Source: a virus. Taken from it: 39,069 nt of DNA. The stretch spans positions 1 to 39,069 of IMG/VR virus record IMGVR_UViG_3300032215_000091. One strand, given 5' to 3'. The notes beneath the pieces were generated by a model, which saw nothing but the letters and a program-made list of their open reading frames with translations, was not told where the DNA came from and did no database searches. Position 1 is the first letter of the stretch. Each line of letters opens with the position of its first letter. Shown in pieces: positions 1,207 through 33,322 of this stretch. Both the position numbers and the translations under genes were made by a program.

Positions 1207-2076
1207 TTATGGCCTTAAGAGTGGGGGAATACCCGCACGGCTTATACTACTACCTAGTTTACTAGCATTTTGCTTCAAAGTCTCTGGACCAATGTCAACA
1301 GTTAATGCAGTTTTATATCTAGGATCATTTCTTTCTTTATAGCTAGGGATATATCCACTAGCACCTTCAGGTAAACTTAATCTTTCACTGTGTAAAACGT
1401 TAAGTCTATCAAACAACTTTTTAATAATGCCTTTACTACGCAATGCTTTGAATGCTAGATTCTCAGGACCAAACTCACCGTGTAAATGTAAACCGTTCTT
1501 ACGATATTTCTTAATCTTGTCAATTACAATTTGTATCTTGTTTGGATCATTGTGCTTTAATGCTACTTTGGCCAAGTCACGCATTTTATTGAACTTTAAT
1601 TTAGTTGCCATTTGGTCTAAATTAGCACGTGATTTTCTAGGTAATTTGATCCATTTGTCATGTAGAATGCTATATTCACCCAAGCTGATAACTGGTTCGT
1701 TGGCATCTTGTATATATAATTCTACTTCGTATCCGTTAACAATAATATCATGTGTATCATTGTATAATGTCTTTTTAGCGTGAAACAATTCACGATAGAC
1801 TAATTCATCATTTAGCTTACCCATATCTACTAGGATATGTAAGTCTATATCACTGTGCTTTGTATAAGTGTAGGCTGCATTACTGCCGGATAATGTGATG
1901 TCCATTACTTGTATATTGTCAAGACCTAGATGGTCAATAAAGTCACCCGCAATTAACAATAATTGCTCTCTTACATCATCACGCATGGTGTCTCCGGCAA
2001 AAATTGCATGATTTAATTCATCATGGAAGTAAATTGCGTCATGTAGCTTGAAACTGTCTAATTCTTTAAGGTTCAT
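1207..2076 (-). CDS. Pol-beta-superfamily nucleotidyltransferase
   Basis: This 289-aa protein has the minimal nucleotidyltransferase signature. Gly-Ser is at residues 64-65 (LSGSNAAY), followed by SDIDLHILVD with catalytic carboxylates D76 and D78. A later strand, YEVELYIQD, supplies the probable third acidic residue. The family transfers nucleotides to protein, RNA or small-molecule hydroxyls; the substrate here cannot be told. The C-terminal half is basic and helical with no recognised domain. The gene stands alone after a terminator, and a late-type box (CATAAATA) ends 5 nt before the ATG, so no ribosome-binding site fits and a leaderless late mRNA is predicted. A second pol-beta-type gene lies at 6305-7033, but the two are too different to look like a recent duplication. 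Confidence 0.82.
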   Translation of the reverse strand: MNLKELDSFKLHDAIYFHDELNHAIFAGDTMRDDVREQLLLIAGDFIDHLGLDNIQVMDITLSGSNAAYTYTKHSDIDLHILVDMGKLNDELVYRELFHAKKTLYNDTHDIIVNGYEVELYIQDANEPVISLGEYSILHDKWIKLPRKSRANLDQMATKLKFNKMRDLAKVALKHNDPNKIQIVIDKIKKYRKNGLHLHGEFGPENLAFKALRSKGIIKKLFDRLNVLHSERLSLPEGASGYIPSYKERNDPRYKTALTVDIGPETLKQNASKLGSSISRAGIPPLLRP

Positions 2077-3121: not shown

Positions 3122-4597
3122 TTATTCTTCGTCTATATAATCAAATGATTCGTTTGTATTTGTTTTTTTGGGGCGATTGATACTTACTTTGATAAACTCT
3201 TTATCGTCTTGTTTAGGTGATGGTTTGTCTTTATAATTCTGAATATCCTGATATTGTTTGATGGCAGATTGTTTGGTTACTTCTTTAACTTCTTCTTCCG
3301 CCACACCTTGCTCTACGCTTTCACTTTTGTATGTAGCTCCAGTGCAGACCCAAGCAGGGCCAGTGTATCCTTGCGGGAATGCCTTCAAATGCTGAATAGT
3401 CCTATGCCAACCTTCAATCAAATCATAACCGTTTGATAATTTAGCAACAATAATTGGTTCTGCACTCACACCCTTTTGCTGAATCATTTGTGATTGCTGT
3501 GCGTGTCTTTCAGCATCTCGTGGAACTTGAAAAGGATTAGAACTACCACCTTCACGACTAGCGAGCATACGCTGAGTTTTTGGTGTAAAGATATCAAATG
3601 TTATGGGCAGTTTAGTCAGTGTCCATTTACAATTACCAAAGTCTTGTTTATTTCTTTTTAGAAAATCATCTAATTCGGCCTGGTCACGAATTCCTTTGGC
3701 TTGTGCATATAAGAAGTCTTTCAACACATAGTCAGGCCAAGTTGGAAAATGTCGCTTCACAAAGGCAAACAAACTGTCTCTAGCTTCCGTCAAGCCTTCC
3801 GCCACACCTTGCTGGCTTTCTTTAAGAGCAACCTTCATCAATTTGACAAATTGAATTTTCTTTTCTAATGAAGCTTCTTTCAATAAAGGTTTCGCTTTGC
3901 GAACAATATCAATCACACTTTCTTTTAGTGCTTTATCTTTGATTTGTTTAACTGCTTTTTGTTTTGGCTCTTTGACCTTTTTAGGTACGTTTAATCTGCT
4001 TTTTGCTCTGTTCATAAATTCTAATACCTCTGCGTCTGATAATGCATCGGGCATAGCATCTCGCCAATATGCAAATTGTTCTTCTTCTGTTGTGTTAGGA
4101 TCTTTTAATATCTCACGCATTGGTGTTGCTCTTGGTCCAGCTTCGCTTTGTGCTGGATCATTTACTTGCTGTCGTGAAATTATTTGTAAACTTTCTAAGC
4201 CATAGCTTTGATAAGGTACGTTACCTGATTTGTCTGGTTTCATTAACCATTGAAAGGGTTGAACTTGGTCTTCGCCCAACACTAATAATACATTTTTGTA
4301 TTGTTGACCAACAGACGTTAACACTGATGCTAAAGTACTTCCTGCATGAAAAATACCAGCATATTGCGGGAACACTTTTTTATATATGAATAGTTTTTCT
4401 TCTGGTGTTAATGGATCTTCTTTGCCCATTGTTTCTGAAACAAAAAAGAAAGGTGTTGCTTTTAATTCTTGTGCTTGAACTATAACTGCTTGCGCCAACA
4501 ACATATGACCTTTGTGACCCATGCCACGTCCCCAACCTACCACAGCATCTGCTTGTGCTTGTTGCAACGCTTCAATGATATATTGTTTTAAACTCAT
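3122..4597 (-). CDS. HIGH-type nucleotidyltransferase fused to a ParB-like C-terminal domain
   Basis: This is a 491-aa two-domain protein. Residues 18-205 carry cytidylyltransferase-like motifs: VVGWGRGMGHKGH, with the HxGH signature at 28-31; PLTPEEKLFIYKKVFP at 62-77; LLVLGEDQ; and an ATPMR motif at 157-161, corresponding to the S/TxxR motif of adenylyl/cytidylyltransferases. A Lys-rich linker (205-262) leads to QQGVAEG (262-268) and LTEA (269-272). Residues 375-410 contain EPIIVAKLSNGYDLIEGWHR, resembling the ParB/Srx GxxR strand-helix. The N-terminus MSLKQYIIE then A resembles a T4 capsid-targeting sequence. Its ATG overlaps the stop of the ligase-like gene by 4 nt, so translation is coupled. 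The substrate is unknown. The nucleotidyltransferase assignment is firm in fold and the ParB-like assignment is tentative. Confidence 0.75.
   Translation of the reverse strand: MSLKQYIIEALQQAQADAVVGWGRGMGHKGHMLLAQAVIVQAQELKATPFFFVSETMGKEDPLTPEEKLFIYKKVFPQYAGIFHAGSTLASVLTSVGQQYKNVLLVLGEDQVQPFQWLMKPDKSGNVPYQSYGLESLQIISRQQVNDPAQSEAGPRATPMREILKDPNTTEEEQFAYWRDAMPDALSDAEVLEFMNRAKSRLNVPKKVKEPKQKAVKQIKDKALKESVIDIVRKAKPLLKEASLEKKIQFVKLMKVALKESQQGVAEGLTEARDSLFAFVKRHFPTWPDYVLKDFLYAQAKGIRDQAELDDFLKRNKQDFGNCKWTLTKLPITFDIFTPKTQRMLASREGGSSNPFQVPRDAERHAQQSQMIQQKGVSAEPIIVAKLSNGYDLIEGWHRTIQHLKAFPQGYTGPAWVCTGATYKSESVEQGVAEEEVKEVTKQSAIKQYQDIQNYKDKPSPKQDDKEFIKVSINRPKKTNTNESFDYIDEE
3296..3312 (-). repeat. 17-nt repeat, copy 1 (encodes QGVAE)
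   Basis: This 17-nt string is identical to the one at 3797-3813 and in the same frame, encoding EQGVAEE near residue 430 of the HIGH-nucleotidyltransferase fusion protein. Confidence 0.8.
3797..3813 (-). repeat. 17-nt repeat, copy 2 (encodes QGVAE)
   Basis: This is the second identical copy, encoding QQGVAEG at residues 262-268. The two copies flank the ParB-like domain. Confidence 0.8.
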
Positions 4598-5772
4598 ATC
4601 TTTTTTGGTGCCCAGTTTTGTTGGTCAATCAACTTTAAAAATTGACCGGGTAATGGATTGTCAAAGCTAATCTCAGGGTGTGCTTGTACATATCCTTCAG
4701 GATTAGTTTGCATAATGCCACCATGCAGTCCTAAACTTAATGATTTAATTAATTGCATCTTAGCATTAGTTAGTCCTTCAACTGCACCTAGTGTTGCTTC
4801 GTAACCTTTTTTATCTGCTAACATACCCTGTGCTTGACCTTCGCTTAGATTAGCTTGTGCCCATTGTGGAAAGTCTCTGACTAATCCCTGTGTTCTTAAA
4901 TGACTATTGAGATATGTGTATAATATTCCACCTGGCTTGCTTAAGCCCTTTTTAGGTGCAAGATAATTGTCAATGATATTAGCGTTACTACTAATAAAAT
5001 TACCAACTTTGTCAATGTAACTTGTGTCAACACCGGGCATTTCTTCTACATAAGTAGTGCCCTGTACAATAGCATCGGGTGTAGATAAACTTTCTGCATT
5101 TGGATATCTACCTTCTTCTGTACTACCCAATTTATCATACCAGCCAGTGGCTGCTACCATTAACTTTGCCTTTAACTGTTTAGGTGTACCGATTTGTTTA
5201 CCTAAATTACTATCTACTGGAATATGAAACCCAGTGATGTTAGGTTTGAAGTCAAATGTTTTTGTGTTTTTGTTATAAACAGGCATTGCACTTTGGCCGT
5301 CTGGTTTAGTACCGGGATAAAACAACAACCCACCTTCTAAGAATCCTTTTTGTGGACTAATCTTTTCAAAGTAAGGCCACATCTGTGCAAACTGTTTTGC
5401 AAACTGAACTCTACTTTCATCGTTTGGATCAGCATTTCCTGTACCCATAACAAAAGCATATATATCATTTGCATTATTCATTAATGTAGGTGCCCCACTA
5501 CTTGTTTGTGTCTTACCTGACTTCAAGTATGCCCATGCATTCTTTGGAATCATTCTAAAGACACCTCTTTCGTCACGGCCCCAGTATACGACAGGCATAC
5601 CGTCCCATTTTAATTCAATTGAATCATAATTATCAACCATGTGACTCATACGTTCAACTGCATGTAGTCCACCGCTACTACCATTTGAAATGACAAGGTC
5701 CTCTATGTGTTGGTACTTACGTCCAACACCGGGTGCTGCCGCTTCAAATAATAATACGTCTGATAATTTCAT
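4594..5772 (-). CDS. Ligase-like covalent nucleotidyltransferase candidate (KxDG)
   Basis: This 392-aa protein has motifs in the order expected for the ATP/NAD ligase and capping-enzyme superfamily. Motif I is KWDGMP (K55, D57, G58). A motif-III-like strand is GFLEGGLLFYP near residue 145. Motif IV-like PEGYV and motif V-like GQFLKLID lie near the C-terminus. If these align structurally, K55 would be the AMP/GMP acceptor. It also resembles proteins often annotated as DUF6267 in T4-like phages. No separate OB or DNA-binding domain is obvious. The N-terminus MKLSDVLLFE then AAAP looks like a capsid-targeting sequence with a prohead-protease site. It overlaps both neighbours by 4 nt. Enzyme activity is inferred from motifs only. 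Confidence 0.65.
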   Translation of the reverse strand: MKLSDVLLFEAAAPGVGRKYQHIEDLVISNGSSGGLHAVERMSHMVDNYDSIELKWDGMPVVYWGRDERGVFRMIPKNAWAYLKSGKTQTSSGAPTLMNNANDIYAFVMGTGNADPNDESRVQFAKQFAQMWPYFEKISPQKGFLEGGLLFYPGTKPDGQSAMPVYNKNTKTFDFKPNITGFHIPVDSNLGKQIGTPKQLKAKLMVAATGWYDKLGSTEEGRYPNAESLSTPDAIVQGTTYVEEMPGVDTSYIDKVGNFISSNANIIDNYLAPKKGLSKPGGILYTYLNSHLRTQGLVRDFPQWAQANLSEGQAQGMLADKKGYEATLGAVEGLTNAKMQLIKSLSLGLHGGIMQTNPEGYVQAHPEISFDNPLPGQFLKLIDQQNWAPKKI

Positions 5773-6308
5773 TTTCTGTTTTTTTGCACAAACTGTTCAG
5801 CGAGCATTACTAATTCTTCTAATTCTTGTATACTCTCACAATGCCAACGGCGTAGTGCTAGTGCTTTAGGAGTAGGTTTACCACTTGGTGTTTTCATAGG
5901 ACCCTTGTTACCGCCCATTCTAGCACAGAAACTTTTGCGACGGTTGGCAGCTTTGCTGCCTTTCTTCAATTTACTTGGTTTAGTTGTTACGGCAGTCTTT
6001 AGTTTACTACCTGGATTTTCTCTACGATAAGCATTCACCGCCTTTTGACTCATACCAGAAGTCTTATCATGGTGATTGACCTTGTTCCAATCTTCGTCAA
6101 TACTTTCATTAGGTACACAGTTGTTAACTCTTGTGTCTCCTTTCTTTTTAGTACCTTCTTTATGATAACCAGACCAGCAACTTGGGTCTAAGCGTTGTTT
6201 TTCTTCATCTACATTTTTAGGCTTCTTGTGATGCTTTTTCATATTGACAGCAATTGCTGCCTGTTGTGCAGGATTAGCCGCTTCAGTTATAATTTCAGTT
6301 ATTCTCAT
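5769..6308 (-). CDS. Basic Cys-rich phage protein (DUF6321-like)
   Basis: This is a 179-aa, strongly basic protein. It has two conserved-looking blocks. The first is CWSGYHKEGTKKKGD followed by VNNCVPNES (two Cys). The second is SQKAVNAYRRENPGSKLKTA followed by RRKSFCARMGG, KGPMK and ALALRRWHC (two Cys). The second block is widespread in marine T4-like phages and is usually annotated DUF6321. The Cys pairs and Lys/Arg content suggest zinc and nucleic-acid binding, but the role is unknown. The N-terminus MRITEIITE then AANPA fits a T4-type capsid-targeting peptide with cleavage after E9. The gene overlaps both neighbours by 4 nt (ATGA), so it belongs to the same translationally coupled unit as the nucleotidyltransferases. 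Confidence 0.72.
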   Translation of the reverse strand: MRITEIITEAANPAQQAAIAVNMKKHHKKPKNVDEEKQRLDPSCWSGYHKEGTKKKGDTRVNNCVPNESIDEDWNKVNHHDKTSGMSQKAVNAYRRENPGSKLKTAVTTKPSKLKKGSKAANRRKSFCARMGGNKGPMKTPSGKPTPKALALRRWHCESIQELEELVMLAEQFVQKNRK

Positions 6309-7033
6309 TTTAATATCTCCAGTGCTTTACGAAACCATTCAATACTACCTTCAGTAACTGACTCTGAAAAATACTTGTCTTTAATTGCTTTATATTTCTC
6401 AGGATATTGCTCAAGCGCCTTCATCATTAGTGTAGGATTACCCATGTCTTTTGCATTAGCAGTTGGCCCAATAATAATTTTAGCAATTTGATCCTTATCA
6501 TTAGTAACAAGTTCTTTTGTTTCTCTATCAACTAGTCCTTTATATGGACTCATCATTAGACTAGCATGTCCTGGCAATTGACTCATGTTCGATAAGTCAG
6601 CCCACATAGCATGAAGTGTGCCTCCTTTTAATGTAGGGTCACTGTAATCATGCGTATGTAATGGTTGTGCCGCTGCCGCGTTCTCTACTGCCATTATATC
6701 AACTTGAACTACGTTATTAGAATTACCAACTGGAACGCCTACGTGAATACTTACACCGGTACGTGCGGCAAACAGACCTTTACTTTGAAAGTATTCTTCT
6801 AGTGCTTTGCGACTTAATTTTAATTCTTTTGCTGGAAATGCAGTCATTAGTTCTTTTGCATCAACCAATACGTCAATGTCACTTGAAATTTCTTTTTTAC
6901 CTGCGCTACCGATTGGATACAATTGCATATTAGGTGGTAATAATTTTCTTAGATTATCCATGACTGCACTAAAGTTAGCTTTTTCTAACTGTACAGCGTT
7001 TGGGACTACATTTCCACCTTCAAATAATTTCAT
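6305..7033 (-). CDS. Second pol-beta-superfamily nucleotidyltransferase
   Basis: In this 242-aa protein, IGSAGKKEISSDIDVLVD (residues 41-58) is the pol-beta-type signature, with GS at 42-43 and catalytic D52 and D54. VVQVDIMAVE supplies the third acidic residue. The following region (THDYSDPTLKGGTLHAMW) resembles the family's nucleotide and substrate-binding part, as in phage homologues. The substrate is unknown. The start is ATG with AAGG about 12 nt upstream. The N-terminus MKLFE then GG is a short version of the (L/I)xE-G/A pattern seen in neighbours. A weak late-type box (AATAAATA, 7079-7086) lies 45 nt upstream inside the preceding gene. It is the first gene of the 4-nt-overlap cluster that runs down to 3122. 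Confidence 0.8.
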   Translation of the reverse strand: MKLFEGGNVVPNAVQLEKANFSAVMDNLRKLLPPNMQLYPIGSAGKKEISSDIDVLVDAKELMTAFPAKELKLSRKALEEYFQSKGLFAARTGVSIHVGVPVGNSNNVVQVDIMAVENAAAAQPLHTHDYSDPTLKGGTLHAMWADLSNMSQLPGHASLMMSPYKGLVDRETKELVTNDKDQIAKIIIGPTANAKDMGNPTLMMKALEQYPEKYKAIKDKYFSESVTEGSIEWFRKALEILK

Positions 7034-7034
7034 T

Positions 7035-7373
7035 TTAGTAACTTACCTTAATACTTTGAATTGTTCCTTGACTGAACATATTTATTTGCGCTCTCATCCA
7101 AACAAAGTTGCCTTGAATATTAGTATAATTGATTTGTGTTAGATTATTTGCTTGGATAGTATGTACAGTGAACCAATCACTTCCTATTGGATTCTCAACT
7201 AATGTAGCTTGGATAAGAATCTTACCACTTACACCAACTAGATTCCATAACAATGTTTGTGTATCTCTGTTGCCCAAATGATAATTGGCTGCTGGTTTCC
7301 TGTCGCCCGTAACAGTTGATATATTGTTATACGGAGTCTGTGGTAACAGAATCTGAGTGGTAATTTGGCTCAT
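7035..7373 (-). CDS. Hypothetical small beta-rich protein
   Basis: This 112-aa protein is not assigned to a family. It has alternating hydrophobic strands (KILIQATLV, DWFTVHTIQA, NFVWMRAQINM, IQSIKVSY), suggesting a small beta-sandwich like those of phage structural or decoration proteins. Its ATG overlaps the stop of the 55-aa gene by one base (TAATG), so the two are probably translationally coupled. The next gene starts one base after its stop. Location downstream of a late promoter suggests late expression; a virion role is inference. Confidence 0.7.
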   Translation of the reverse strand: MSQITTQILLPQTPYNNISTVTGDRKPAANYHLGNRDTQTLLWNLVGVSGKILIQATLVENPIGSDWFTVHTIQANNLTQINYTNIQGNFVWMRAQINMFSQGTIQSIKVSY

Positions 7374-7540
7374 TACGCTACTACGACCTCAACGACTACA
7401 GAGTCGCCTACTAACTCTTGGGCGACTTGTTCTAATGCTTGTTGAATGTCAGCACTGGCAATAGTAGAAACATCTGATTCGCTGTCCTTGACTATTTTGC
7501 TGAGGGTGATGACTATGTTTTCTGTGACAATCTTTGCCAT
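7373..7540 (-). CDS. Small hypothetical acidic protein
   Basis: This is a 55-aa protein, MAKIVTENIVITLSK onward, acidic and hydrophobic, ending in a Val-rich strand (VVVEVVVA). A frame five codons longer could begin at TTG (7555), but GGAG of a ribosome site lies inside that extension, about 9 nt before the ATG at 7540, so ATG is preferred. The leader can form a hairpin that hides the GGAG (7545-7569). The function is unknown. Confidence 0.7.
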   Translation of the reverse strand: MAKIVTENIVITLSKIVKDSESDVSTIASADIQQALEQVAQELVGDSVVVEVVVA

Positions 7541-12007: not shown

Positions 12008-12598
12008 TTATAATCCTGCCTTTGAAATAAAATCTTTTAATAAACTATCTTTTTCTGTATAAACATTTGCGTTGGGCAATCCAGCAATGTTTCTCATTTC
12101 GTTTAAATCACCGTCATCAATATCTGCTATATCAACAACTTCTTCACCATCATCTTCGCTATCTTCATTTTGTTCACGATATTCTAATGGGATTGTAATC
12201 ATATTTAGCTTTAATGTGTTCAAGTCTGCTTCGTACTCTTCACCATCAATTTTAACTTTCCAATCTTCTAATGTTATTCCAGTTAATGTCTCTAAGTCAT
12301 CCAATATCTCTATCAATCTTTCTGGTGCTTTGCTTCTACGATTTGTTTCTACAAATACAACAAAGCGATTAGTCATTAACTCACCCTCGCTTACTTCACA
12401 GTCATTGACATAATCATAACCTTTGATAATCCAGTCACATAAATCTTCACCAACTGCCTTACCTTTAACTATGAAAGAGAAAGTAATGATTTCATCATTT
12501 TCGCCGGATCTAGCTTCGTATTCATCTACTGATACAGTAGGGATGATTTGATTTTCAAAATCTAAATGGTCTAAACCTTCAACAAGTACTTTTCTCAT
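12008..12598 (-). CDS. Acidic conserved phage protein of unknown function
   Basis: This 196-aa protein is strongly acidic. The first 130 residues look like an alpha/beta fold (ITFSFIVKGKAVGEDLCDWI, RFVVFVETNRRSKAPERLIE). An Asp/Glu-rich stretch (EDSEDDGEE) and the C-terminal motif DLNEMRNIAGLPN follow. That motif resembles the (E)LxxIRKLSGxPEL motifs in the large proteins at 23.7-30 kb, so this protein may share an interaction partner or maturation route with them. ATG has AGGAA upstream, 1 nt after the preceding gene. The function is not recognised. Confidence 0.72.
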   Translation of the reverse strand: MRKVLVEGLDHLDFENQIIPTVSVDEYEARSGENDEIITFSFIVKGKAVGEDLCDWIIKGYDYVNDCEVSEGELMTNRFVVFVETNRRSKAPERLIEILDDLETLTGITLEDWKVKIDGEEYEADLNTLKLNMITIPLEYREQNEDSEDDGEEVVDIADIDDGDLNEMRNIAGLPNANVYTEKDSLLKDFISKAGL

Positions 12599-23730: not shown

Positions 23731-26700
23731 TTAGATTCCGCTTAGTTTTCTAAAATCAGACAACAAGTCAGTACTATCTCTCATTAATGTGCCTTCTGCT
23801 GTAACGATTTTGATGATTGGAGCTGTAGCTTGACTACGTTTTTCTCCCATGCCGCCACCGCCACTTAGTGTTCTCATCATAAATTCTAAGTCTTGGTCTG
23901 CTGTATCATCAGCATCATTAGCATATTCTTCTAATTGTCTTGACAACTCGGCTTTAGCCTGCTGAAGCATTTTTAGTTCGTGTTCATAATGAGAAGGATC
24001 GCCGCCAAATTCATAAGCCATCTGACTCAATTGTTTTGGAGTGGCTGCTTTGATTCTTTCCTGTGTCTCTGAATCGTATTGAGAGGCTGCGCTTTCATTT
24101 ACTTCTTCGTAGTCACATCCACATGATTCCATTGGGTAACCGCATTCGTTACACGAATCGTGACCTTCTTCAATACTGCTTGTATCAGTATATTCTTTGC
24201 CACCTATGCTGAATTTTTCACCGTGTTGAGTATTTTTTAATTTCTCAGTAAAATCATTTCCTTCATCTACATCGTCACCGCCAGTATCAAGTCTGCGAGG
24301 ATCTCTTTTTGAAAATTCTGAAGAACTTTGTCCAGCTCCGGCATCGGATGTAGTTGGGGGTGGAGCAGTTGGAGTTGGAGTTGGAGTTGAATTTTTCTTT
24401 TTATCACCATATCCAGCCATGTCCGCAGCCTGGTTTACAGCACTACCAATACCGTTTAAGGCTACCAATCCAGCTCCTGTACTAATTAATGCTTTTTGGT
24501 GTGGAGTATAACCTGACCCTTTATTATGTGATACTACTTTACCTTCATCTACTTCTTGTTCATCGTCACATGCACATGGACTTTCTCCGCATTCTTCGCA
24601 CTCACCATCTTCATGGTCATGTTCTTCTTCGTGACCTTCTTCATGCTCGTAATTTTGGCTATCTTGTTCACCACTACCTTCAATATCAGTCATCTTTTGA
24701 ATCAATTGCATCATATCATCGCCGCCTTCGTCACCTATTTCACTATGTGCTTGAGGACTACCAACTGCGATTAACTGTGCTTCTGGTCCATGATGCTCAC
24801 TACCTGACATTGGAAGACCATAGTTATTAACTTTTTGACCATGTTCTTGTTTACCTCCGCCCATACCACCTAGACCTGCATTACGCAATAGTTCAATGAT
24901 TTCATGTGCGTTACCTTCAGTTGCACTTACATTCACGCTATCATGACCTTGGTCATCAATAGTTGTGCTGATAGTAATGTTTTCATTTAATAATGAATCT
25001 AATTCTTTGCTCCAGCTTTCTAATTGTACGTCTTTCATATCTTTCCCTTCAAATGCCCTTCTAGTTGAGGCTAAGTTTCTGATAAAGCTTCCTGCTTCTT
25101 TAACACCTTCAGGATCAGATACTGCAGGTTTAAATGTTTTAGAATTGTCCGGTACTAATGGTTTGTAATCATCTTTACCCCATCCTGGGCTTGCTGTACG
25201 TGCTGCCGGAGCAGGTGTATTTGGATTAACTACAGGAGGATTAACTGAACCGCGACCCGCACCTGCGCCTTCATCAACTGTACCCTGACCTAGATAATGA
25301 TGGAATGCTGTAACAACTTCACCTAAGAAATCTGGGTCATGGTTTAATTTGTAATGTGCAGACTTAGGTGTCATGCCCATTTGAATCATTTCGTGATATA
25401 CTGCATTAGCAAATTCATCAGAGTCAGAAGCCAATGTAGGATTCTCTTGTGCTAAAGTCTTACCAACTTTCTCGTAAGTATATTCGCTTTCTTCCATTAC
25501 ACGTGCTTCGGAAACTTTCTTCTTTTTACGTAATGCTTCAAAGTCAGCCTTTGTTAGTTTACCTTTTGGTTCTGCAACATCTAAGTTATCTTGCTTACCC
25601 GGCAAATCTTTTGCTTCGTCAACACCTTTTAAACGTCCGTCATTTTCAGCTGGCTTCGTGTCCTTGGCAACTTCTTTTGATGCAGGCTTCTTTTTCTTGA
25701 AGGACGGATAAGGTGCTGTCTGCGTGAATGCGTTGGAGACCGGTCTCACACCTTTGTACTCCGCCTCTTGCATTGAGCCTTCGTCATATTTGTTATACTT
25801 GGCTCTAACAGGTTCAAGATTTTTACCTTCGCGGCCAGCATCGGCCAGGGCTTGCATACCTTTTTTACCGTATTTTTCATGACCTTTAGCGGCACGACTC
25901 ATTTGTTTTTTATTATCTTCTTCAATTTGTGGATCAAATGCACGATTCTCTGCACTATCTTTGCCTCTACCAAAACGTGTTAATTCTTGGTCACCAACTT
26001 TAGCTGTGTCACCTACAGCTAATTTTTGACCTGATGCTCTTAAACCTTTTAGTGCCTTTGCTGTATCATCTCTATGTTGTTGATATTGACCTCCGCCACC
26101 CATGTGATTTTTTCCATACCAGCTAGCAGAGTTACCGTCTTTTGCTCGCATAACATGTGTGTCTTCCATTGTTGTATCTTCAGATTCATTAATCATATTA
26201 TCAGATACAACTTCCATCCAATCTTTTAGACTATGCTTAACAGACTTCTTGCCGACTTCGCCTTTTGCTTTGCTACCTAACATGCCTTGTAAGCCTGATG
26301 TATCAAACTTGGTATCATTACCGTGTTCGTCTTTATCACCTTTTGTTGGGCGACCACGACCACGCTTAGGAGCATCTTTTTTAGCTTCTGAGCCTTTATC
26401 AATTTTGCCAATCTTATGTCCATATTGGTCACGAACATCTTCTTTGCCATAGCTGTTACCATAAGTACCTTTGTGTACTGTAACTTCTGATTCTGTTAGT
26501 TCAGGTAATCCTGAAAATTTTCTTAGTTGATTTAGTTCCATAGTTGATTCTCTCATAATTGATTCTTCAAAGTCTCTCTCATCCGCATCAGTATTGTCTG
26601 AAGTAGTTGCGGCTTGTTTATTACTTGCTTGGTTCATTGCTGATTGAGCAGGTGCTTGTTGTGGTGTCATTGTAGTATTGTTAGCAACGCCTGAACCAGC

Positions 26701-28785
26701 AGTTGATGTTGTAGCCGCTTGAGTTGATTGTGAAGTATTTCCCTGACCAAAAGCTACATCTTTCTTATAATTAACGCCTGCCATTGGGCTACCTGATGTT
26801 GGTTGTGTCGCAGGTGCTCTTGTTCCTAAAGCTCCTTGATTAAATGCTGACGGAGTTTCTGCCGGTGCTCTTGTTCCTAAATTACCTTGATTGAATGCAA
26901 CACTAGCATTCGCAGTTCCTGGATTAGCTGGAGCTGCTGTTGGTGCAGGTTGTCCGCCCATGATGCCTGTCTTAGCTAATTCATTTGCACCGCCTGCTGT
27001 TTGTGCTTGACTACCAACAGGAGGACCTGCAGGTGTTGCTGGTTTAACCATCTTACTACCAGCTGTTGTTGCTGCCTGTGTTTGAGCCGCAGTAGGTCCG
27101 CCCTGACCACCTCTACCACCACCAACAGTAGCGGCTTGTATACCAGCACCACGTTGAAACGATCCAGGAGGACCTGATGCACCGGCTGATGTTACTGCCG
27201 GAGTAACTGCCGGTGGTTTAACCTGATTCATTGCTGATTGAGCAGGCGCTACTTGTGGAGTAACTTTAGCTGAACCAGAACCTGCGGGTTGACCTACTGG
27301 AGCTGCCGGTCCAGTTGTTCCTGTTTGTGTTCCTGCTTGATTTTGCATTGTTCTTAATGACGATGCATTAGTAGCAGTTGTTGGTGCTGTTGCAGGGGTG
27401 GGTGCAGGTTTTTTCATATAAGCCGGCATACCTGCTTCCATTAACTCAGGCATACCTGAAAGTTTTCTTATTCTGTTTAATTCTTCAAAAGACTCTTTAG
27501 TAAAAATTCCCTTGATATTGTCACCTACATTACCCCAGAATTTTTTTCCTGCTTCTCTATTTTGTATGTCTCTAGCATTGTCGGCAGCTATCTTTTCTTG
27601 ACTAGGCAGAGACTGTCTAGGATTTGCTTGACGCCATTGAAGTTCTGCATCACTGGATGTTTTAACAGTACTTCCGTCACGTGATTTCCAACTACTACCG
27701 TCACCGCTTTTAACATCAGCACCGGGTGCTAATGATGCAGGGTTAGTGGGTACTTTACTATCAATTCCTTGACGAATAAAGTAATCAGTTGGATCTGCAT
27801 TTCCCAATTTTTTCTGGGCTTCAGGATCCATACTTGCCTTTTCAGCTGCCTTATTAGCATCAGATTGTGCTCTATCAGTTGTTGGTAGTGAAGGTGCTGT
27901 TGTAGTTGCAGCCTGAGTTGGTGGTTTATTTCTTAATGCATTAAGAATATCATTATTTGTTTGTGATACTGCTGGATTAACAAAAGCACTTGCATTAGCA
28001 TCATTACTATCATCCATTGATGTGTTTGGGTTAGTAAAAGTACTTGCATTGGCATCATTACTATCATCCATTGATGTCTCTGGTGGCTTTGCTGGGGTTA
28101 CTGGAGTTACTGGTGCCGGAGCAGGAGGTTTTTCTGCACTAGGTCCAGGTAATACTGAATCAGGCTTATCTAATTCTGCTCTAGGTTGACCAGAAGGACG
28201 TGTCATTCTTTGTGCAATCTTGTCTAGTGTATCACCTTTTTGTATTTTGTACATATTGCCGCCACCTAAATCAATACTATCACCTGCTTTAATTTGATTG
28301 ACGTTTTTGATTTTGTCTGGATTCAATGCCATTAGTGACTGAGAACCTTCACTACCTTTGTAGCCTAAATTAGGCTGTGGTTTTGGTGGAGGATTTACTG
28401 GTCCTGGAGGATTTGTAACTGTGGCTGGTTGTGTATTTGGAGTCACTGCTGGTGGATTAACTTTTCCACGACCTGCGCCTGCCATATAAGCACCAGTACC
28501 AACAACTGCTAACGGTACAGCAACTGCCGCCGCCTTCTGAGTGTTTGACATGCCTTTTTTGTCGGAAGCCATTGGTTCGGCTGCTTTTGTTTTTGTATCT
28601 TTATACGGAACGTCAGTGACATCAGGTGCGGGTTTAGCTGTTGCATTTGGTTTAGCACCTGTTCTTGGGTCAGGGGCTCTGAATTCAGTTCCTAATGGAA
28701 TAGGTTTAACCACTGCTGGCAAATGAGCACCTCTTAGTGCTGGCAAATGCGGTGCACCCACTTCGTTAAGTTCATTAATCTTCAT
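23731..28785 (-). CDS. Giant low-complexity virion precursor-like protein with LysM-like domain
   Basis: This 1684-aa protein, largely disordered, is rich in Pro, Ala, Gly, Thr and Gln. Visible pieces include the N-terminus MKINELNE then VGAPH, a capsid-targeting-like peptide; a hydrophobic, possibly membrane segment at about 84-104; a LysM-like segment at about 157-195 (MYKIQKGDTLDKIAQRM); and tandem 18-residue repeats (MDDSNDANAS, near 250). Three copies of an ELxxIRKLSGxPEL-xE motif lie near residues 440, 755 and the C-terminus. Two Cys clusters (CEECGESPCAC near 1400, CNECG with CGC near 1550) may bind zinc. The xLxE motifs fit prohead-protease sites, so it may be cut into several peptides. 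It starts 2 nt after the 425-aa gene with AGGAAA upstream and is followed by a strong terminator. Confidence 0.8.
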   Translation of the reverse strand: MKINELNEVGAPHLPALRGAHLPAVVKPIPLGTEFRAPDPRTGAKPNATAKPAPDVTDVPYKDTKTKAAEPMASDKKGMSNTQKAAAVAVPLAVVGTGAYMAGAGRGKVNPPAVTPNTQPATVTNPPGPVNPPPKPQPNLGYKGSEGSQSLMALNPDKIKNVNQIKAGDSIDLGGGNMYKIQKGDTLDKIAQRMTRPSGQPRAELDKPDSVLPGPSAEKPPAPAPVTPVTPAKPPETSMDDSNDANASTFTNPNTSMDDSNDANASAFVNPAVSQTNNDILNALRNKPPTQAATTTAPSLPTTDRAQSDANKAAEKASMDPEAQKKLGNADPTDYFIRQGIDSKVPTNPASLAPGADVKSGDGSSWKSRDGSTVKTSSDAELQWRQANPRQSLPSQEKIAADNARDIQNREAGKKFWGNVGDNIKGIFTKESFEELNRIRKLSGMPELMEAGMPAYMKKPAPTPATAPTTATNASSLRTMQNQAGTQTGTTGPAAPVGQPAGSGSAKVTPQVAPAQSAMNQVKPPAVTPAVTSAGASGPPGSFQRGAGIQAATVGGGRGGQGGPTAAQTQAATTAGSKMVKPATPAGPPVGSQAQTAGGANELAKTGIMGGQPAPTAAPANPGTANASVAFNQGNLGTRAPAETPSAFNQGALGTRAPATQPTSGSPMAGVNYKKDVAFGQGNTSQSTQAATTSTAGSGVANNTTMTPQQAPAQSAMNQASNKQAATTSDNTDADERDFEESIMRESTMELNQLRKFSGLPELTESEVTVHKGTYGNSYGKEDVRDQYGHKIGKIDKGSEAKKDAPKRGRGRPTKGDKDEHGNDTKFDTSGLQGMLGSKAKGEVGKKSVKHSLKDWMEVVSDNMINESEDTTMEDTHVMRAKDGNSASWYGKNHMGGGGQYQQHRDDTAKALKGLRASGQKLAVGDTAKVGDQELTRFGRGKDSAENRAFDPQIEEDNKKQMSRAAKGHEKYGKKGMQALADAGREGKNLEPVRAKYNKYDEGSMQEAEYKGVRPVSNAFTQTAPYPSFKKKKPASKEVAKDTKPAENDGRLKGVDEAKDLPGKQDNLDVAEPKGKLTKADFEALRKKKKVSEARVMEESEYTYEKVGKTLAQENPTLASDSDEFANAVYHEMIQMGMTPKSAHYKLNHDPDFLGEVVTAFHHYLGQGTVDEGAGAGRGSVNPPVVNPNTPAPAARTASPGWGKDDYKPLVPDNSKTFKPAVSDPEGVKEAGSFIRNLASTRRAFEGKDMKDVQLESWSKELDSLLNENITISTTIDDQGHDSVNVSATEGNAHEIIELLRNAGLGGMGGGKQEHGQKVNNYGLPMSGSEHHGPEAQLIAVGSPQAHSEIGDEGGDDMMQLIQKMTDIEGSGEQDSQNYEHEEGHEEEHDHEDGECEECGESPCACDDEQEVDEGKVVSHNKGSGYTPHQKALISTGAGLVALNGIGSAVNQAADMAGYGDKKKNSTPTPTPTAPPPTTSDAGAGQSSSEFSKRDPRRLDTGGDDVDEGNDFTEKLKNTQHGEKFSIGGKEYTDTSSIEEGHDSCNECGYPMESCGCDYEEVNESAASQYDSETQERIKAATPKQLSQMAYEFGGDPSHYEHELKMLQQAKAELSRQLEEYANDADDTADQDLEFMMRTLSGGGGMGEKRSQATAPIIKIVTAEGTLMRDSTDLLSDFRKLSGI
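27970..28085 (-). repeat. Tandem duplication coding for MDDSNDANAS units
   Basis: Two near-identical units of about 54 nt encode NTSMDDSNDANASxFxNP twice within the 1684-aa protein. Confidence 0.8.
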
Positions 28786-28787
28786 TT

Positions 28788-30065
28788 TTATTTCCTATAA
28801 TTCATTAAGTGTATTACTCTATCTAATTCAGACACACTTTCATTTGTTTTAAATGTTTCTTTACTAAACATACTACCGTTATCAGTATCAGTTGATTGCG
28901 GTGTGCTAGTAGTATTTATTGCTGGTGTTTGTTCTTTGTTTGCATCTTTGTTTGCATCTTGGTCAGCGTGATATTGTGCAATAAATTTATCATAGTCATC
29001 CGTGTTTGCCCACTTAGAATCAGGTGTTAGTTTATCTTTAAGATATAAGCCACCGCCCACTAAAGCAGCACCGGTTGCTACTTTCATAGCTCTTGACCTA
29101 GTTTTAGCGTCTGCCGCTTTTTTTTCGTCTCCTGCTATCTTGTCAGACAGTGCTTGAATTTGTTTTTGTTGTGCCGCTTGTTGTGGATTATCAATCTGCT
29201 TTGGATCTACCGGACCTGACGCTTTTGCCGCATCTTTTTGTTGTTGTGCGGCTCTTACTCGTTCTTGATAACTTATATCAGGATTACGTCCTTGTGCGGC
29301 TTTTACATTTGGATCTAAACCTGCTATACCAGAACCGTGAGGAGCAGATACGTGAGGTGCTCTAACGTGAGGTGCACCGGCTTCTGATATAGACTGACCT
29401 GATAATCTCTTTATATCATATAACTCATCACTCTCTTTTACAGGTTCACCTTGTAGTTTATCTGATGCATCCCAGCCTGCTCTGCTACCAGTAAATCCAC
29501 CTACTGTTTGACCACCAAACTTAGTTGTTCCAGTAGCTACTTTTCCTGGCGTTGTTGTAGCTTTAGGTAAGGCTTTAGCTATACCTTTGCCAACTAATTT
29601 GGAACCTAAATAAAATCCAGGGTCATATAAACTTCCAGCGATAGCGCCTGCCATACTAGCGTTAGGACTTCTTTCCCATGCAGCCTGTGATAAGTCTTTT
29701 TGTGTTTGTAAATCTGTACCGGCAAGTTTTGAAGCAACCCAATCAGAACCACCAAATGTTAGTGCATTTGTCCCTGCTCTTACTGCATCATCAGCAGTGT
29801 GTGCAACATTTAATGCCGCTTGTTTTGGATTCTTTTTTGCGAATTCCCAACCTTGTTCCATATCACGACCGGCTTGCTTATATGTTTCAGGATCTATTGC
29901 TGCCTTACCTGCACTAACTGCGGCATTACCAACCATTTTACCGGTATCAACTATATCACTACCAACTCTACCTGCGAAATCACCTATATCTTTAAAGACG
30001 CTAGGTTGGTCTTTAGCACCGCTAGCTCCTAGACGTTCATTAAGAATGATTTCATTGATATTCAT
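28788..30065 (-). CDS. 425-aa Ala/Lys-rich protein related to the 1684-aa precursor
   Basis: This 425-aa protein, Ala/Gly/Lys/Asp-rich, has N-terminus MNINEIILNE then RLGAS, like a T4 capsid-targeting peptide. Hydrophobic glycine-rich segments lie near 140-160 and 330-350 (KVATGAALVGGGLYLKD). Near residue 227 ELYDIKRLSGQSISE then AGAPHVRAPH combines the recurrent LSG motif with a possible cleavage site. The product end AGAPHVRAPH closely resembles VGAPHLPALRGAH at the start of the 1684-aa protein. It ends SELDRVIHLMNYRK, another variant of the motif. It overlaps the small membrane-protein gene by 4 nt. It may be an internal head or injected protein. No enzyme domain is seen. Confidence 0.72.
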   Translation of the reverse strand: MNINEIILNERLGASGAKDQPSVFKDIGDFAGRVGSDIVDTGKMVGNAAVSAGKAAIDPETYKQAGRDMEQGWEFAKKNPKQAALNVAHTADDAVRAGTNALTFGGSDWVASKLAGTDLQTQKDLSQAAWERSPNASMAGAIAGSLYDPGFYLGSKLVGKGIAKALPKATTTPGKVATGTTKFGGQTVGGFTGSRAGWDASDKLQGEPVKESDELYDIKRLSGQSISEAGAPHVRAPHVSAPHGSGIAGLDPNVKAAQGRNPDISYQERVRAAQQQKDAAKASGPVDPKQIDNPQQAAQQKQIQALSDKIAGDEKKAADAKTRSRAMKVATGAALVGGGLYLKDKLTPDSKWANTDDYDKFIAQYHADQDANKDANKEQTPAINTTSTPQSTDTDNGSMFSKETFKTNESVSELDRVIHLMNYRK

Positions 30066-30274
30066 TTTCTCTTGTCAAGTTTATTTTCAATACGATTTAG
30101 TTGTGCTTGAAGTTCAACTACTCTATCGGAAACATTGTCCATTTTGGTACTATTAATTTCAACTTTTTTATCTATAGTTGACATATTGGTATTGACTGTG
30201 AGATAACCTGTACCTCCTAGACTACATGCCCCTATAACTATCCATGTCAGTTGGCTTGTATTAAAATCAATCAT
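30062..30274 (-). CDS. Small membrane protein with coiled-coil tail
   Basis: In this 70-aa protein residues 8-27 (QLTWIVIGACSLGGTGYLTV) form one membrane segment. The rest is polar and coiled-coil-like (DNVSDRVVELQAQLNRIENKL). Topology resembles small phage lysis or membrane-anchoring proteins such as inner-membrane spanin subunits, but it lacks a partner and a diagnostic motif. GGAG precedes the ATG by about 9 nt. Both ends overlap neighbours by 4 nt, so it is coupled to them. Confidence 0.68.
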   Translation of the reverse strand: MIDFNTSQLTWIVIGACSLGGTGYLTVNTNMSTIDKKVEINSTKMDNVSDRVVELQAQLNRIENKLDKRK

Positions 30275-30873
30275 TTGTTAGCTCCAGTTGATGGTTTTGG
30301 TGGACGCTTCATATTAGACATTGGACTCTTAGTTTGAATGCCGTCTTTTGATGTATTCTTAATTGTTGCTGTTTTCTTACCAGAGTATGGAATATCCACA
30401 CTTGGTTTCTTTGGAAGTACTTTATCTAAGTACTGATTTGCATATTCTTTGCTTGCTTCTTTGCCGTTATCTTCTAGATCAGGTTTGTCTAGTAGTGCTT
30501 TCTTGTCATCACTCATTTGATTAGCATATTTGTCATTCTCAGCATTGATGCTATCATCATAGTCAGAAGTCATCACTCTAACTGTATTGATATTCTTACC
30601 TAACAATTGAGCAATTTGCTGAATCATTGGTTCAGTTGCTGGATACTTGAACTCTGCTTTAATAATATGTACTGATTCGTTTGCTAAATCAGGAAACCCC
30701 GAAGGGGACTTAACAATAGGTGTAGACTTTGGATCGCTGACACTTACTGGATCAAATTTGTTCAAATTATATTTGAACATCTCCATAAAGTTTTTGTCAA
30801 CATCACCGGCGATTTTGATAGTGTAACGGTATGTACGTACACTTTCAGTTAGGTAAGAGCGAAGGCTTTTCAT
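30271..30873 (-). CDS. Conserved phage protein with capsid-targeting-like N-terminus
   Basis: This 200-aa protein begins MKSLRSYLTE then SVRTY, matching the T4 capsid-targeting pattern with possible cut after E10. The next about 110 residues look like a small alpha/beta domain (YRYTIKIAGDVDKNFMEMFK, SVHIIKAEFKYPATEPMIQQ, VRVMTSDY). The C-terminal part is Lys/Asp/Pro-rich and probably disordered. It resembles conserved proteins of T4-like environmental phages near structural genes, but the role is unknown. Its start codon lies in a hairpin overlapping its late promoter. Confidence 0.72.
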   Translation of the reverse strand: MKSLRSYLTESVRTYRYTIKIAGDVDKNFMEMFKYNLNKFDPVSVSDPKSTPIVKSPSGFPDLANESVHIIKAEFKYPATEPMIQQIAQLLGKNINTVRVMTSDYDDSINAENDKYANQMSDDKKALLDKPDLEDNGKEASKEYANQYLDKVLPKKPSVDIPYSGKKTATIKNTSKDGIQTKSPMSNMKRPPKPSTGANK

Positions 30874-31411: not shown

Positions 31412-31416
31412 TTATT
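31409..31416 (-). promoter_or_regulatory. Late-type promoter box AATAAATA
   Basis: It overlaps the stop of the gp4-like gene and lies 18 nt from the ATG at 31390. Confidence 0.6.
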
Positions 31417-31852
31417 ACTTGTTTTTGCCGTTGTAAAACAAGTCATTTTCTGTAACTACACGGAAACTAAACCCCTGTGCTTTACAGTATGCATTGGCTG
31501 CTTGCCACTTAGAATGATTAATTGCAACTATCATCTTGTCTCTTGCATTTGCCACTTTGCTTTCAATAAGACTTTGCTTTTTAGGTTTGATTTCAACTAC
31601 TTCTGCTATTGTCTTACCGTATTTGTTTTGATATACAATGAAAAAGTCAGGAATGTATGTCGTTACTTTACCTGTAAATGGATGACGATATGGTATTCTG
31701 ATTGACTCACTTGCCCATTTAAGTACACTTTTGTTATTATCACAGAACATCATGAATGTCATTTCCCAACCTGATCTGAATCTAGGTTTACCGTTCCCTA
31801 TATATTTTTCTGGGTTTTGTACTTCAAAAATGCCTTGAGCAAATTTACTCAT
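31415..31852 (-). CDS. gp4: Head completion nuclease (gp4-like, TnsA-type)
   Basis: This 145-aa protein shows the gp4 layout of T4-like phages: GIFEVQNPEKYIGNGKPRFR, SGWEMTFMMFCDNNKSVLKW, then the nuclease core with E in SESIRIPYRHP, the PDF motif (YIPDFFIV) and EIKPKKQ. The last two match the catalytic D and ExK of TnsA/restriction-type endonucleases. gp4 acts in head completion after packaging. It overlaps the upstream 116-aa gene by 4 nt. Confidence 0.86.
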   Translation of the reverse strand: MSKFAQGIFEVQNPEKYIGNGKPRFRSGWEMTFMMFCDNNKSVLKWASESIRIPYRHPFTGKVTTYIPDFFIVYQNKYGKTIAEVVEIKPKKQSLIESKVANARDKMIVAINHSKWQAANAYCKAQGFSFRVVTENDLFYNGKNK

Positions 31853-32203: not shown

Positions 32204-33322
32204 TTATTTCACTGTTGATGGGTTGTTTGTGCTATTTTTCCCAGAAGGAAATAATGCCTTAGCACCATTTTGTGCTTGTTGTGTTACTGCCGGTGCCACG
32301 TAACTTCTTACATCATTCTTTATAGCATTGACAATACCAGATTTACTGTTAAATGTTTGTGCTATGCCACCTGCTTTTTTTAGTGCACCTAAATAATTAC
32401 CATTCTCTATATCAGATAGTACACCACCTGCGCTATCTAACAGTCCATTAGGACCCATTATACTTGAAGAGGTTGCTGTACCTAATGGGCTTGGTGTTTT
32501 ATCATACCCGCCACCTGTAACAAAATCATCAGTAGTAGCATTGCCACCGCCACCGCCTTTAATTAAGGCTTTGCCATCAAGACCGCCTTCATAATATTTT
32601 ACTGTTTCGTATGCAATGGTCATGGTGTTAGTCATTGTACCATTACCTTGATTATAGTCATAGTTATCGTGTTTGAAACTTGTAATGATAGGATTAATTA
32701 ACTGATAACAAACAAAACTATTTTGATTAAAACCATATATGTTAATTACGTTAAAGAAATCTTGTTTAAAACCGTCACCGTTTTCACTGCGACTACCATC
32801 ATAACCCCAAGAAATACCTTCATTGGCTGTATCTAAATTTTTATAAATGTTTCGTTGTTGATTTGGTTTAATTTTTTGACTTGTTTTAGTTTTACCATCA
32901 GTTGTAAAATTACCAGGATCTTTATAGTTGTATGTATAGTAGTTGTACCACATGTTACGCACAGTGTTTGCGTTATCATCATGGAATGTTATATTGATAT
33001 CACTATATTTGATTTTGGTTTGTACTACACGCTTACGATTATATTGATTCATTATATGTGTATCAAACGTATAACTAGGTAAGTCAATTGATTTTACTGT
33101 TAATCCATAGGGAATATTTAGTGCATTTAACTGTGGATTTATATCAAAGTATACGTGGAATAGAAACTTGAATTTAGGGCTGTTTGCATACCCTGCTGTT
33201 CTGAATGTAGTTGACGCATGTTGGTAATCACGTACATAGTCAGTACTAAAAAATCCCTTAGCAATTCCATGAATGAAACTACTAGGGGATTCTCCTATGA
33301 TTTGCTCAAAAAGACCAGCCAT
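32204..33322 (-). CDS. Tail-tube-fold baseplate protein (gp54-like candidate)
   Basis: This is a 372-aa protein. Residues about 45-240 have tail-tube features: KFLFHVYFDIN, IDLPSYTFDTHIMNQYNRKR, DINITFHDDNANTVRNMW and INPIITSFKHDNYDYNQGNG followed by TMTIAYETVKYYEG. These recur in gp19-type and tube-initiator proteins. The Gly-rich C-terminus is extra. Next to the true tube gene, a tube-initiator (gp54/gp48-like) role is plausible but not proven. It has a late box 10 nt from the ATG, leaving about a 5-nt leader and no ribosome site. Confidence 0.68.
   Translation of the reverse strand: MAGLFEQIIGESPSSFIHGIAKGFFSTDYVRDYQHASTTFRTAGYANSPKFKFLFHVYFDINPQLNALNIPYGLTVKSIDLPSYTFDTHIMNQYNRKRVVQTKIKYSDINITFHDDNANTVRNMWYNYYTYNYKDPGNFTTDGKTKTSQKIKPNQQRNIYKNLDTANEGISWGYDGSRSENGDGFKQDFFNVINIYGFNQNSFVCYQLINPIITSFKHDNYDYNQGNGTMTNTMTIAYETVKYYEGGLDGKALIKGGGGGNATTDDFVTGGGYDKTPSPLGTATSSSIMGPNGLLDSAGGVLSDIENGNYLGALKKAGGIAQTFNSKSGIVNAIKNDVRSYVAPAVTQQAQNGAKALFPSGKNSTNNPSTVK

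Follow-up and report, generated by a model that had tools for sequence, protein, structure and literature searches.

The window analysed here is the whole 39-kb virus record IMGVR_UViG_3300032215_000091 (39,069 nt), which stems from a T4-like myophage. The jumbo phages PA5oct and Atu_ph07 have the tail sheaths nearest to that of the window, and its gene content and order track PA5oct via a 171-kb relative. On the minus strand lie four consecutive genes that overlap by 4 nt each, with the starts given in the original prediction, and encode proteins of 491, 392, 179 and 242 amino acids (aa; Table 1). All four proteins begin with a short peptide resembling the capsid-targeting tags of T4 internal proteins, of the form MxxxEFIxE|A (a vertical bar marks the predicted cut). 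Three of these tags span 9-10 residues and end in IIE, LFE and ITE. The T4 propeptides have about 10-19 residues and are all longer than the fourth tag, MKLFE. Besides, a near-invariant word of ~20 bp (CAGCAAGGTGTGGCGGAAGGC) flanks the ParB-like module of the 491-aa gene and is translated in frame as the linker QQGVAEG. The original reading of this protein as a tagged enzyme stood, but it missed that a swappable cassette sits between two ~20-bp repeats. As detailed below, the four products are probably T4-type internal proteins, one of which belongs to a family that exchanges domain cassettes at this word.

Table 1. Features of the window discussed in the text
Feature	Coordinates	Strand	Description
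491-aa protein	3122..4597	-	tag MSLKQYIIE|A, HIGH-type cytidylyl/adenylyltransferase domain (~residues 14-205), linker, ParB-like cassette, linker, tail
Capsid-targeting-like tag MSLKQYIIE of the 491-aa protein	4571..4597	-	
First element copy	3794..3814	-	core CAAGGTGTGGCGGAA at 3797-3811; reads QQGVAEG
Exchangeable ParB/Spo0J-like cassette	3311..3796	-	residues 268-429; other cassettes in near-identical phages
Second element copy	3293..3313	-	core at 3296-3310; reads EQGVAEE
392-aa DUF6267 protein	4594..5772	-	ligase-like nucleotidyltransferase, invariant KWDG; tag MKLSDVLLFE|A
Tag of the 392-aa protein	5743..5772	-	
179-aa basic Cys-containing protein	5769..6308	-	DUF6321; tag MRITEIITE|A at 6282-6308
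242-aa Pol-beta-like nucleotidyltransferase	6305..7033	-	motif GSAGKKEISSDIDVLV; short tag MKLFE|GGN at 7019-7033
200-aa protein	30271..30873	-	tag MKSLRSYLTE|S; homologue in the PA5oct virion
196-aa protein	12008..12598	-	tag-like MRKVLVE|G and internal copy of scaffold C-terminal motif, EMRNIAGL; tentative
1684-aa probable head/internal protein	23731..28785	-	MKINELNE|V, scaffold-like motif EELNRIRKLSG; tentative
425-aa probable head/internal protein	28788..30065	-	MNINEIILNE|R, scaffold-like motif ELYDIKRLSG; tentative
289-aa Pol-beta-type nucleotidyltransferase	1207..2076	-	no clear tag; S-CREM2 gp156 homologue

A loose tag form, [LIVMF]xE with the glutamate at positions 5-10, was present in 13 of the 38 window genes compared with 8.9% of internal sequence windows (binomial p=1.3e-5). 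For the strict form, in which A, G or S follows the glutamate, the figures were 6/38 and 2.8% (p=6e-4), and the chance expectation of four strict-tag genes in a row is ~2e-5. In a non-redundant set of 1091 proteins from related loci, the glutamate signal amounted to 11.8% at position 5, 7.2% at position 8 and 9.9% at position 9 against a background of 1.8% (p down to 1e-62), rates that hold for loci collected around tagged genes or the repeat and not for whole genomes. A logo of these N-termini, akin to the full-genome logo suggested along with the original prediction, returned M[KR]xxE[FI][IL]TE|A and M[KR][IL]xEL[LF]E|[NA]. As had also been predicted, MKINELNE, MNINEIILNE and MKSLRSYLTE start further window proteins. 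The claim that genes of other roles lack the pattern was partly right: some of them fit the loose form (31415-31852, MSKFAQGIFE|V; 32204-33322, MAGLFE|Q; 7373-7540, MAKIVTE|N) and one, that of the 196-aa protein, fits the strict form. Several head and tail genes match the loose form, and the pattern is thus not exclusive to the four-gene set.

Homologues of the DUF6267 protein illustrate how the tags behave across phages. About 30 of them are tagged, with tags that vary in sequence and length (among them MKLSDVLLFE, MRVSDLLLE, MKIQTLLE, MRAIEFLTE and MKPSDFLTE), yet all end in E, nearly always followed by A and the same domain. In the 392-aa protein itself, E10 is at least 90% conserved (alignment of 41 sequences) and the predicted structure shows disorder over residues 1-17. 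The N-terminal LxE might instead be a general amphipathic start, or a core-binding peptide that stays uncut, with the proteins acting in the cytoplasm during infection. Such a role would be in line with the loose motif on some tail and head-completion proteins, with the location of cytidylyltransferases next to recombination/replication genes in several T4-like phages, and with the existence of homologues that have no tag. However, positions 5, 8 and 9 are the only ones at which the glutamate is enriched, the E|A boundary is strict although the tags before it are interchangeable, the tag form is identical to that of T4 internal-protein propeptides, and tagged homologues are reported in virions; we therefore regard a cytoplasmic role as unlikely. 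In two related loci (L050, L051), the DUF6267 and nucleotidyltransferase genes, which are two overlapping genes in the window, form a single reading frame in which ITE|A marks the point of fusion.

In the T4 record, IPII and IPIII begin with MKTYQEFIAE|A and gp24 with MAKINELLRE|S. Cleavage in T4 follows L/I-x-E, and the first 10 residues of IPIII are enough for targeting (PMC9026906). Several homologues of the window proteins have been found in virions. The cytidylyltransferase gp154 of S-CREM2 shows homology to the 491-aa protein (E=1e-8), starts with MKNFSSFLTE|A and was detected there, as was gp156 (PMC10665884), a homologue of the nucleotidyltransferase encoded at 1207-2076 (32%, E=3e-31). 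Likewise, an NMNAT of S-SCSM1 that starts with MKSFLQFLKE|A was detected in virions (PMC9602691). Altogether, six cyanophages harbour tagged cytidylyltransferase homologues (S-CREM2, S-SCSM1, S-CRM01, P-SSM2, S-SRM01 and S-B68). The PA5oct homologue of the 491-aa nucleotidyltransferase, in contrast, lacks a tag and carries no mass spectrometry flag as a virion protein, in keeping with tag-directed packaging. In PA5oct, the product of 126689-127291, a homologue of the 200-aa window protein, is present in the virion. A small tagged protein is also encoded near capsid genes in three phages (G010, 125665-125898; G012, 94549-94773; PA5oct, 82921-83142), with the starts MFLNE|, MKLYE| and MKINDIITE|G. 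The PA5oct representative, encoded next to the portal, has been detected in virions and is a possible prohead core protein.

A capsid/protease module is not annotated in the window and was not found in the 171-kb relative when major capsid protein, portal and protease were sought with hidden Markov models and by PA5oct homology, so that the phage's own protease specificity is not readable from sequence. In its place, the comparison of capsid cleavage sites suggested with the original prediction was run on relatives. A gp23-type capsid protein is present in 12 of 17 long contigs of the repeat-carrying group, and most of the N-terminal regions contain LLE|, LLE|G, and LxE|[SN] ahead of a stretch of the SATAGATSAGN/ATAGATSAGN type. 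Based on comparison with T4 gp23 (FLTE|A in the T4 record), LxE|[SN] would be the capsid maturation site in these relatives, and the predicted sites fit the LxE rule. Four linker proteins (L085, L099, L125 and L164) have a longer leader that ends in YVLE or YTLE and is followed by ATAG-like sequence, similar to the capsid protein around its presumed cut.

Other observations argue against packaged, tag-directed cargo, among them the missing capsid/protease module mentioned above. Untagged homologues exist (P-HM1; MIQRTG starts in several contigs), and two long relatives that have capsid modules show a small or modest excess of tags across the proteome. The S-CREM2 authors caution that carry-over could account for the cytidylyltransferase in virions (PMC10665884). 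Across PA5oct proteins, the tag and virion detection are only weakly associated (4/93 vs 1/204, p=0.035; looser motif, p=0.20). Finally, we found no virion proteomics for the window phage or any repeat-carrying relative. We had considered the PA5oct mass spectrometry flags as a decisive test of the tag and dropped them, given the weak association under both the strict and the loose motif.

On balance, the original suggestion that these proteins are head cargo gains support by comparison, namely from the T4-type tag, the LxE capsid sites in relatives and the tagged homologues in virions. The tagged enzymes are probably packaged and, being well supported by such comparison, probably represent additional examples of T4-type internal proteins. 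For the window phage, we infer the following course: the N-terminal tag of 5-10 residues would dock each product on the prohead core, a gp21-type prohead protease would remove it after [LIVF]xE, and the mature cargo would stay in the head and enter the host together with the DNA.

This cargo would comprise an NMNAT/cytidylyltransferase-like enzyme, a ligase-like enzyme, a small basic protein and a Pol-beta-like nucleotidyltransferase. The first assignment, a HIGH-type nucleotidyltransferase as originally proposed, was borne out for the N-terminal domain of the 491-aa protein by a match to phrog_3041 (E=2.6e-20) and the motif GRGMGHKGH. Foldseek matched this domain to PPAT with probabilities up to 1.00 at E ~0.01, and a PDB sequence search with the 491-aa protein gave no match. 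Together with the ParB-like module, this polypeptide unites several effector-type domains, as polyvalent proteins do. The ligase-like reading of the 392-aa protein received partial backing: it has an invariant KxDG and matches to ATP-dependent ligases, but only a modest Z score. K55-W-D-G58 is invariant in 41 DUF6267-type sequences, and a structural second look returned RNA and DNA ligases with a best Z of 6.6, below the safe level, and a Foldseek E of 0.3. Of the Pol-beta reading of the 242-aa protein, the GS..DxD motif was retained, but a family-level profile match was lacking, with no hit in Pfam, PHROG or NCBIfam. At entry, such enzymes could plausibly serve nucleic acid modification or repair, or nucleotide and nicotinamide adenine dinucleotide (NAD) metabolism.

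We next turn to the repeat within the 491-aa gene. The fetched loci contain 408 unique copies of the element, 397 (97%) of which lie in the QGVAE frame, open over 150 bp. Conservation extends from about -3 to about +17 with sharp edges, unrelated flanks and a near-invariant core of ~16 bp. Wobble bases are 88-97% fixed, and most copies encode Val by GTG and Ala by GCG, both rare codons here. The exact 19-mer matches at least 120 stretches of viral contigs, while synonymous versions with common codons match three. The rarity of synonymous versions points to a constraint on the DNA; the element is conserved at the DNA level. Sequences carrying it are all metagenomic contigs. In cultured phages only chance-level matches were obtained (E ~8), and 257 Gb of bacterial and archaeal genomes contained two matches.

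The content of the slot between the elements differs among near-identical relatives. In place of the window's ParB cassette, L007 and L050 carry a 57-aa cassette, L049 a 121-aa cassette and L048 a GNAT plus the ParB cassette, and L051 has no repeat. Up to the element, the window and L049 share 98% identity over 742 nt; their sequences are then unrelated until the next element, from which 188 nt agree at 100%. Across 76 de-duplicated loci, 95 of 617 de-duplicated homology breaks fell at elements (1.7 expected; 0-12 in shifted controls), and the matching sequence on either side of a break typically spans the whole element. Domain cassettes are swapped at a translated 20-bp word, as can be seen directly in the sequences. 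Assembly chimaeras at a short repeat could in principle create such differences, and the exclusively metagenomic origin of the repeat-carrying sequences would allow for it. We consider this highly improbable, though: the ~20-bp repeat is shorter than usual assembly k-mers, the reading frame is kept in nearly all copies, the junctions recur across many samples and contigs, and the repeat-free state exists (L051).

As to mechanism, we infer that the 491-aa protein is a cassette carrier with in-frame modules between copies of an element read as (Q)QGVAE|G, and that phages would swap these modules by recombination at the element. The exchange might alternatively depend on a dedicated site-specific recombinase that recognises the element, which would make this a true cassette system as opposed to homology-driven shuffling. 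The near-invariant core with its sharp edges, common to otherwise unrelated phage proteins, and the inclusion of the whole element in the homology on both sides of breaks are compatible with a recombinase. On the other hand, no linked recombinase was identified, though no systematic search was made, T4-like phages recombine actively themselves, and homology-driven exchange would likewise keep the element identical. We thus deem a dedicated recombinase rather unlikely.

Domains in cassette-bearing proteins include GNAT, ParB, HD hydrolase, RMF-like and nucleotidyltransferase domains. The share of ParB among them is inflated, part of the exchange locus set having been collected via this module, and counts of cassette families are rough since single-linkage clustering of the segments collapsed into one giant cluster. 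The ParB cassette had no match in cultured phages. In one locus (L088:7555-10218), an HD_4 hydrolase domain (E=7.6e-17) and GNAT lie behind the nucleotidyltransferase, which suggests alarmone- or nucleotide-related cargo.

Beyond joining modules, the linker may itself be processed. Unrelated domains that follow QGVAE| in fusions follow MxxxEFxxE| in stand-alone homologues with the glutamates aligned, for example QGVAE|DWNKVNKKDKTSGMS vs MRADEIINE|DWQKVNKKDKTSGMS. Linker proteins also bear strict tags more often (23/82 vs 100/1051, p=5e-6). Besides, one protein (L077) reads GVAE|SASAGATSAGNVG, which past the GVAE matches the capsid protein downstream of its presumed LxE cut. Because of the aligned glutamates, the more frequent tags and the L077 match, we propose that VAE|G is a candidate prohead-protease site, cleavage of which would free the modules. 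A second [LIV]xE soon past the linker occurred in 69/372 cases vs 11% in the control, a modest excess on which we do not rely. Speaking against a protease site is the V at the P3 position of the linker, as the published T4 rule is L/I-x-E. The QGVAEG linkers could then be recombination junctions only, either a DNA-level site or short homology, with the multi-domain proteins remaining whole. In addition to this P3 residue, conservation of the element at the DNA level, wobble bases included, fits a mere junction, and some polyvalent proteins are transferred uncut (PMC5512222). Maintenance of the QGVAE frame speaks for a peptide-level role, yet any joint between coding modules would require the frame. 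A plain junction would not account for a linker glutamate that stands where the tag glutamate stands, before the same domains, nor for the L077 sequence. We accordingly find a purely recombinational linker doubtful, if still a serious contender.

Three window proteins contain motifs (EMRNIAGL in 12008-12598, NRIRKLSG in 23731-28785 and YDIKRLSG in 28788-30065) that resemble the scaffold C-terminus ..NVIDIKRLAGL beside gp23 in related phages and could possibly constitute a shared capsid- or core-binding motif. The scaffold motif was commoner in tagged proteins (p=0.018), but numbers were small and we do not rely on it.

Taken together, a tagged operon of T4-like internal proteins, module exchange at the element and a protease site at VAE|G form an explanation that we consider, as a whole, probable. 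Like T4 IPI-III and Alt (PMC9026906, PMC3012670), the window proteins carry a short N-terminal hydrophobic-x-E peptide before A/G/S and combine, in a T4-like phage, one kind of tag with diverse cargo. Unlike them, they comprise nucleotidyltransferases and ligase-like enzymes in an operon, one with swappable modules, and their cleavage is putative. The virion NMNAT-like proteins of S-CREM2 and S-SCSM1 share a homologous domain and the same type of tag, a feature not discussed in the available portions of the respective papers (PMC10665884, PMC9602691), whereas cultured phages yielded no ParB cassette and no 20-bp element above chance level. The polyvalent proteins that phages and conjugative elements encode are similarly multi-domain, with ParB, Pol-beta nucleotidyltransferase, GNAT and related modules, and thought to be packaged and transferred (PMC5512222), yet in the window type a single conserved DNA element, itself translated, links the modules and marks where they are exchanged.

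Our literature search, which left subscription journals and preprints mostly out of scope, retrieved no phage paper on the linker peptide or a cassette system, and as far as searched, the system is undescribed. Modules are exchanged at conserved short sequences in HsdS specificity-subunit domain swapping and in integron cassettes. The present system resembles these in swapping functional modules at such sequences; it differs in that the joint is a single ~20-bp word in unrelated proteins, in frame and read as a linker, and in that no integrase was identified.

Whether a recombination-based cassette system for injected proteins is common to many uncultured T4-like phages, such that an in-frame word of ~20 bp is both exchange joint and protease site, we judge to be evenly balanced. 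If so, one tagged precursor would deliver a changeable set of effectors that is released in the head. This would explain how large phages quickly renew their injected arsenal without breaking reading frames. The tag and the 20-bp word would together provide a sequence handle to list candidate injected effectors from metagenomes, and would open an old question to testing, namely which proteins are injected by T4-like phages in nature as infection begins, and what roles these proteins play.

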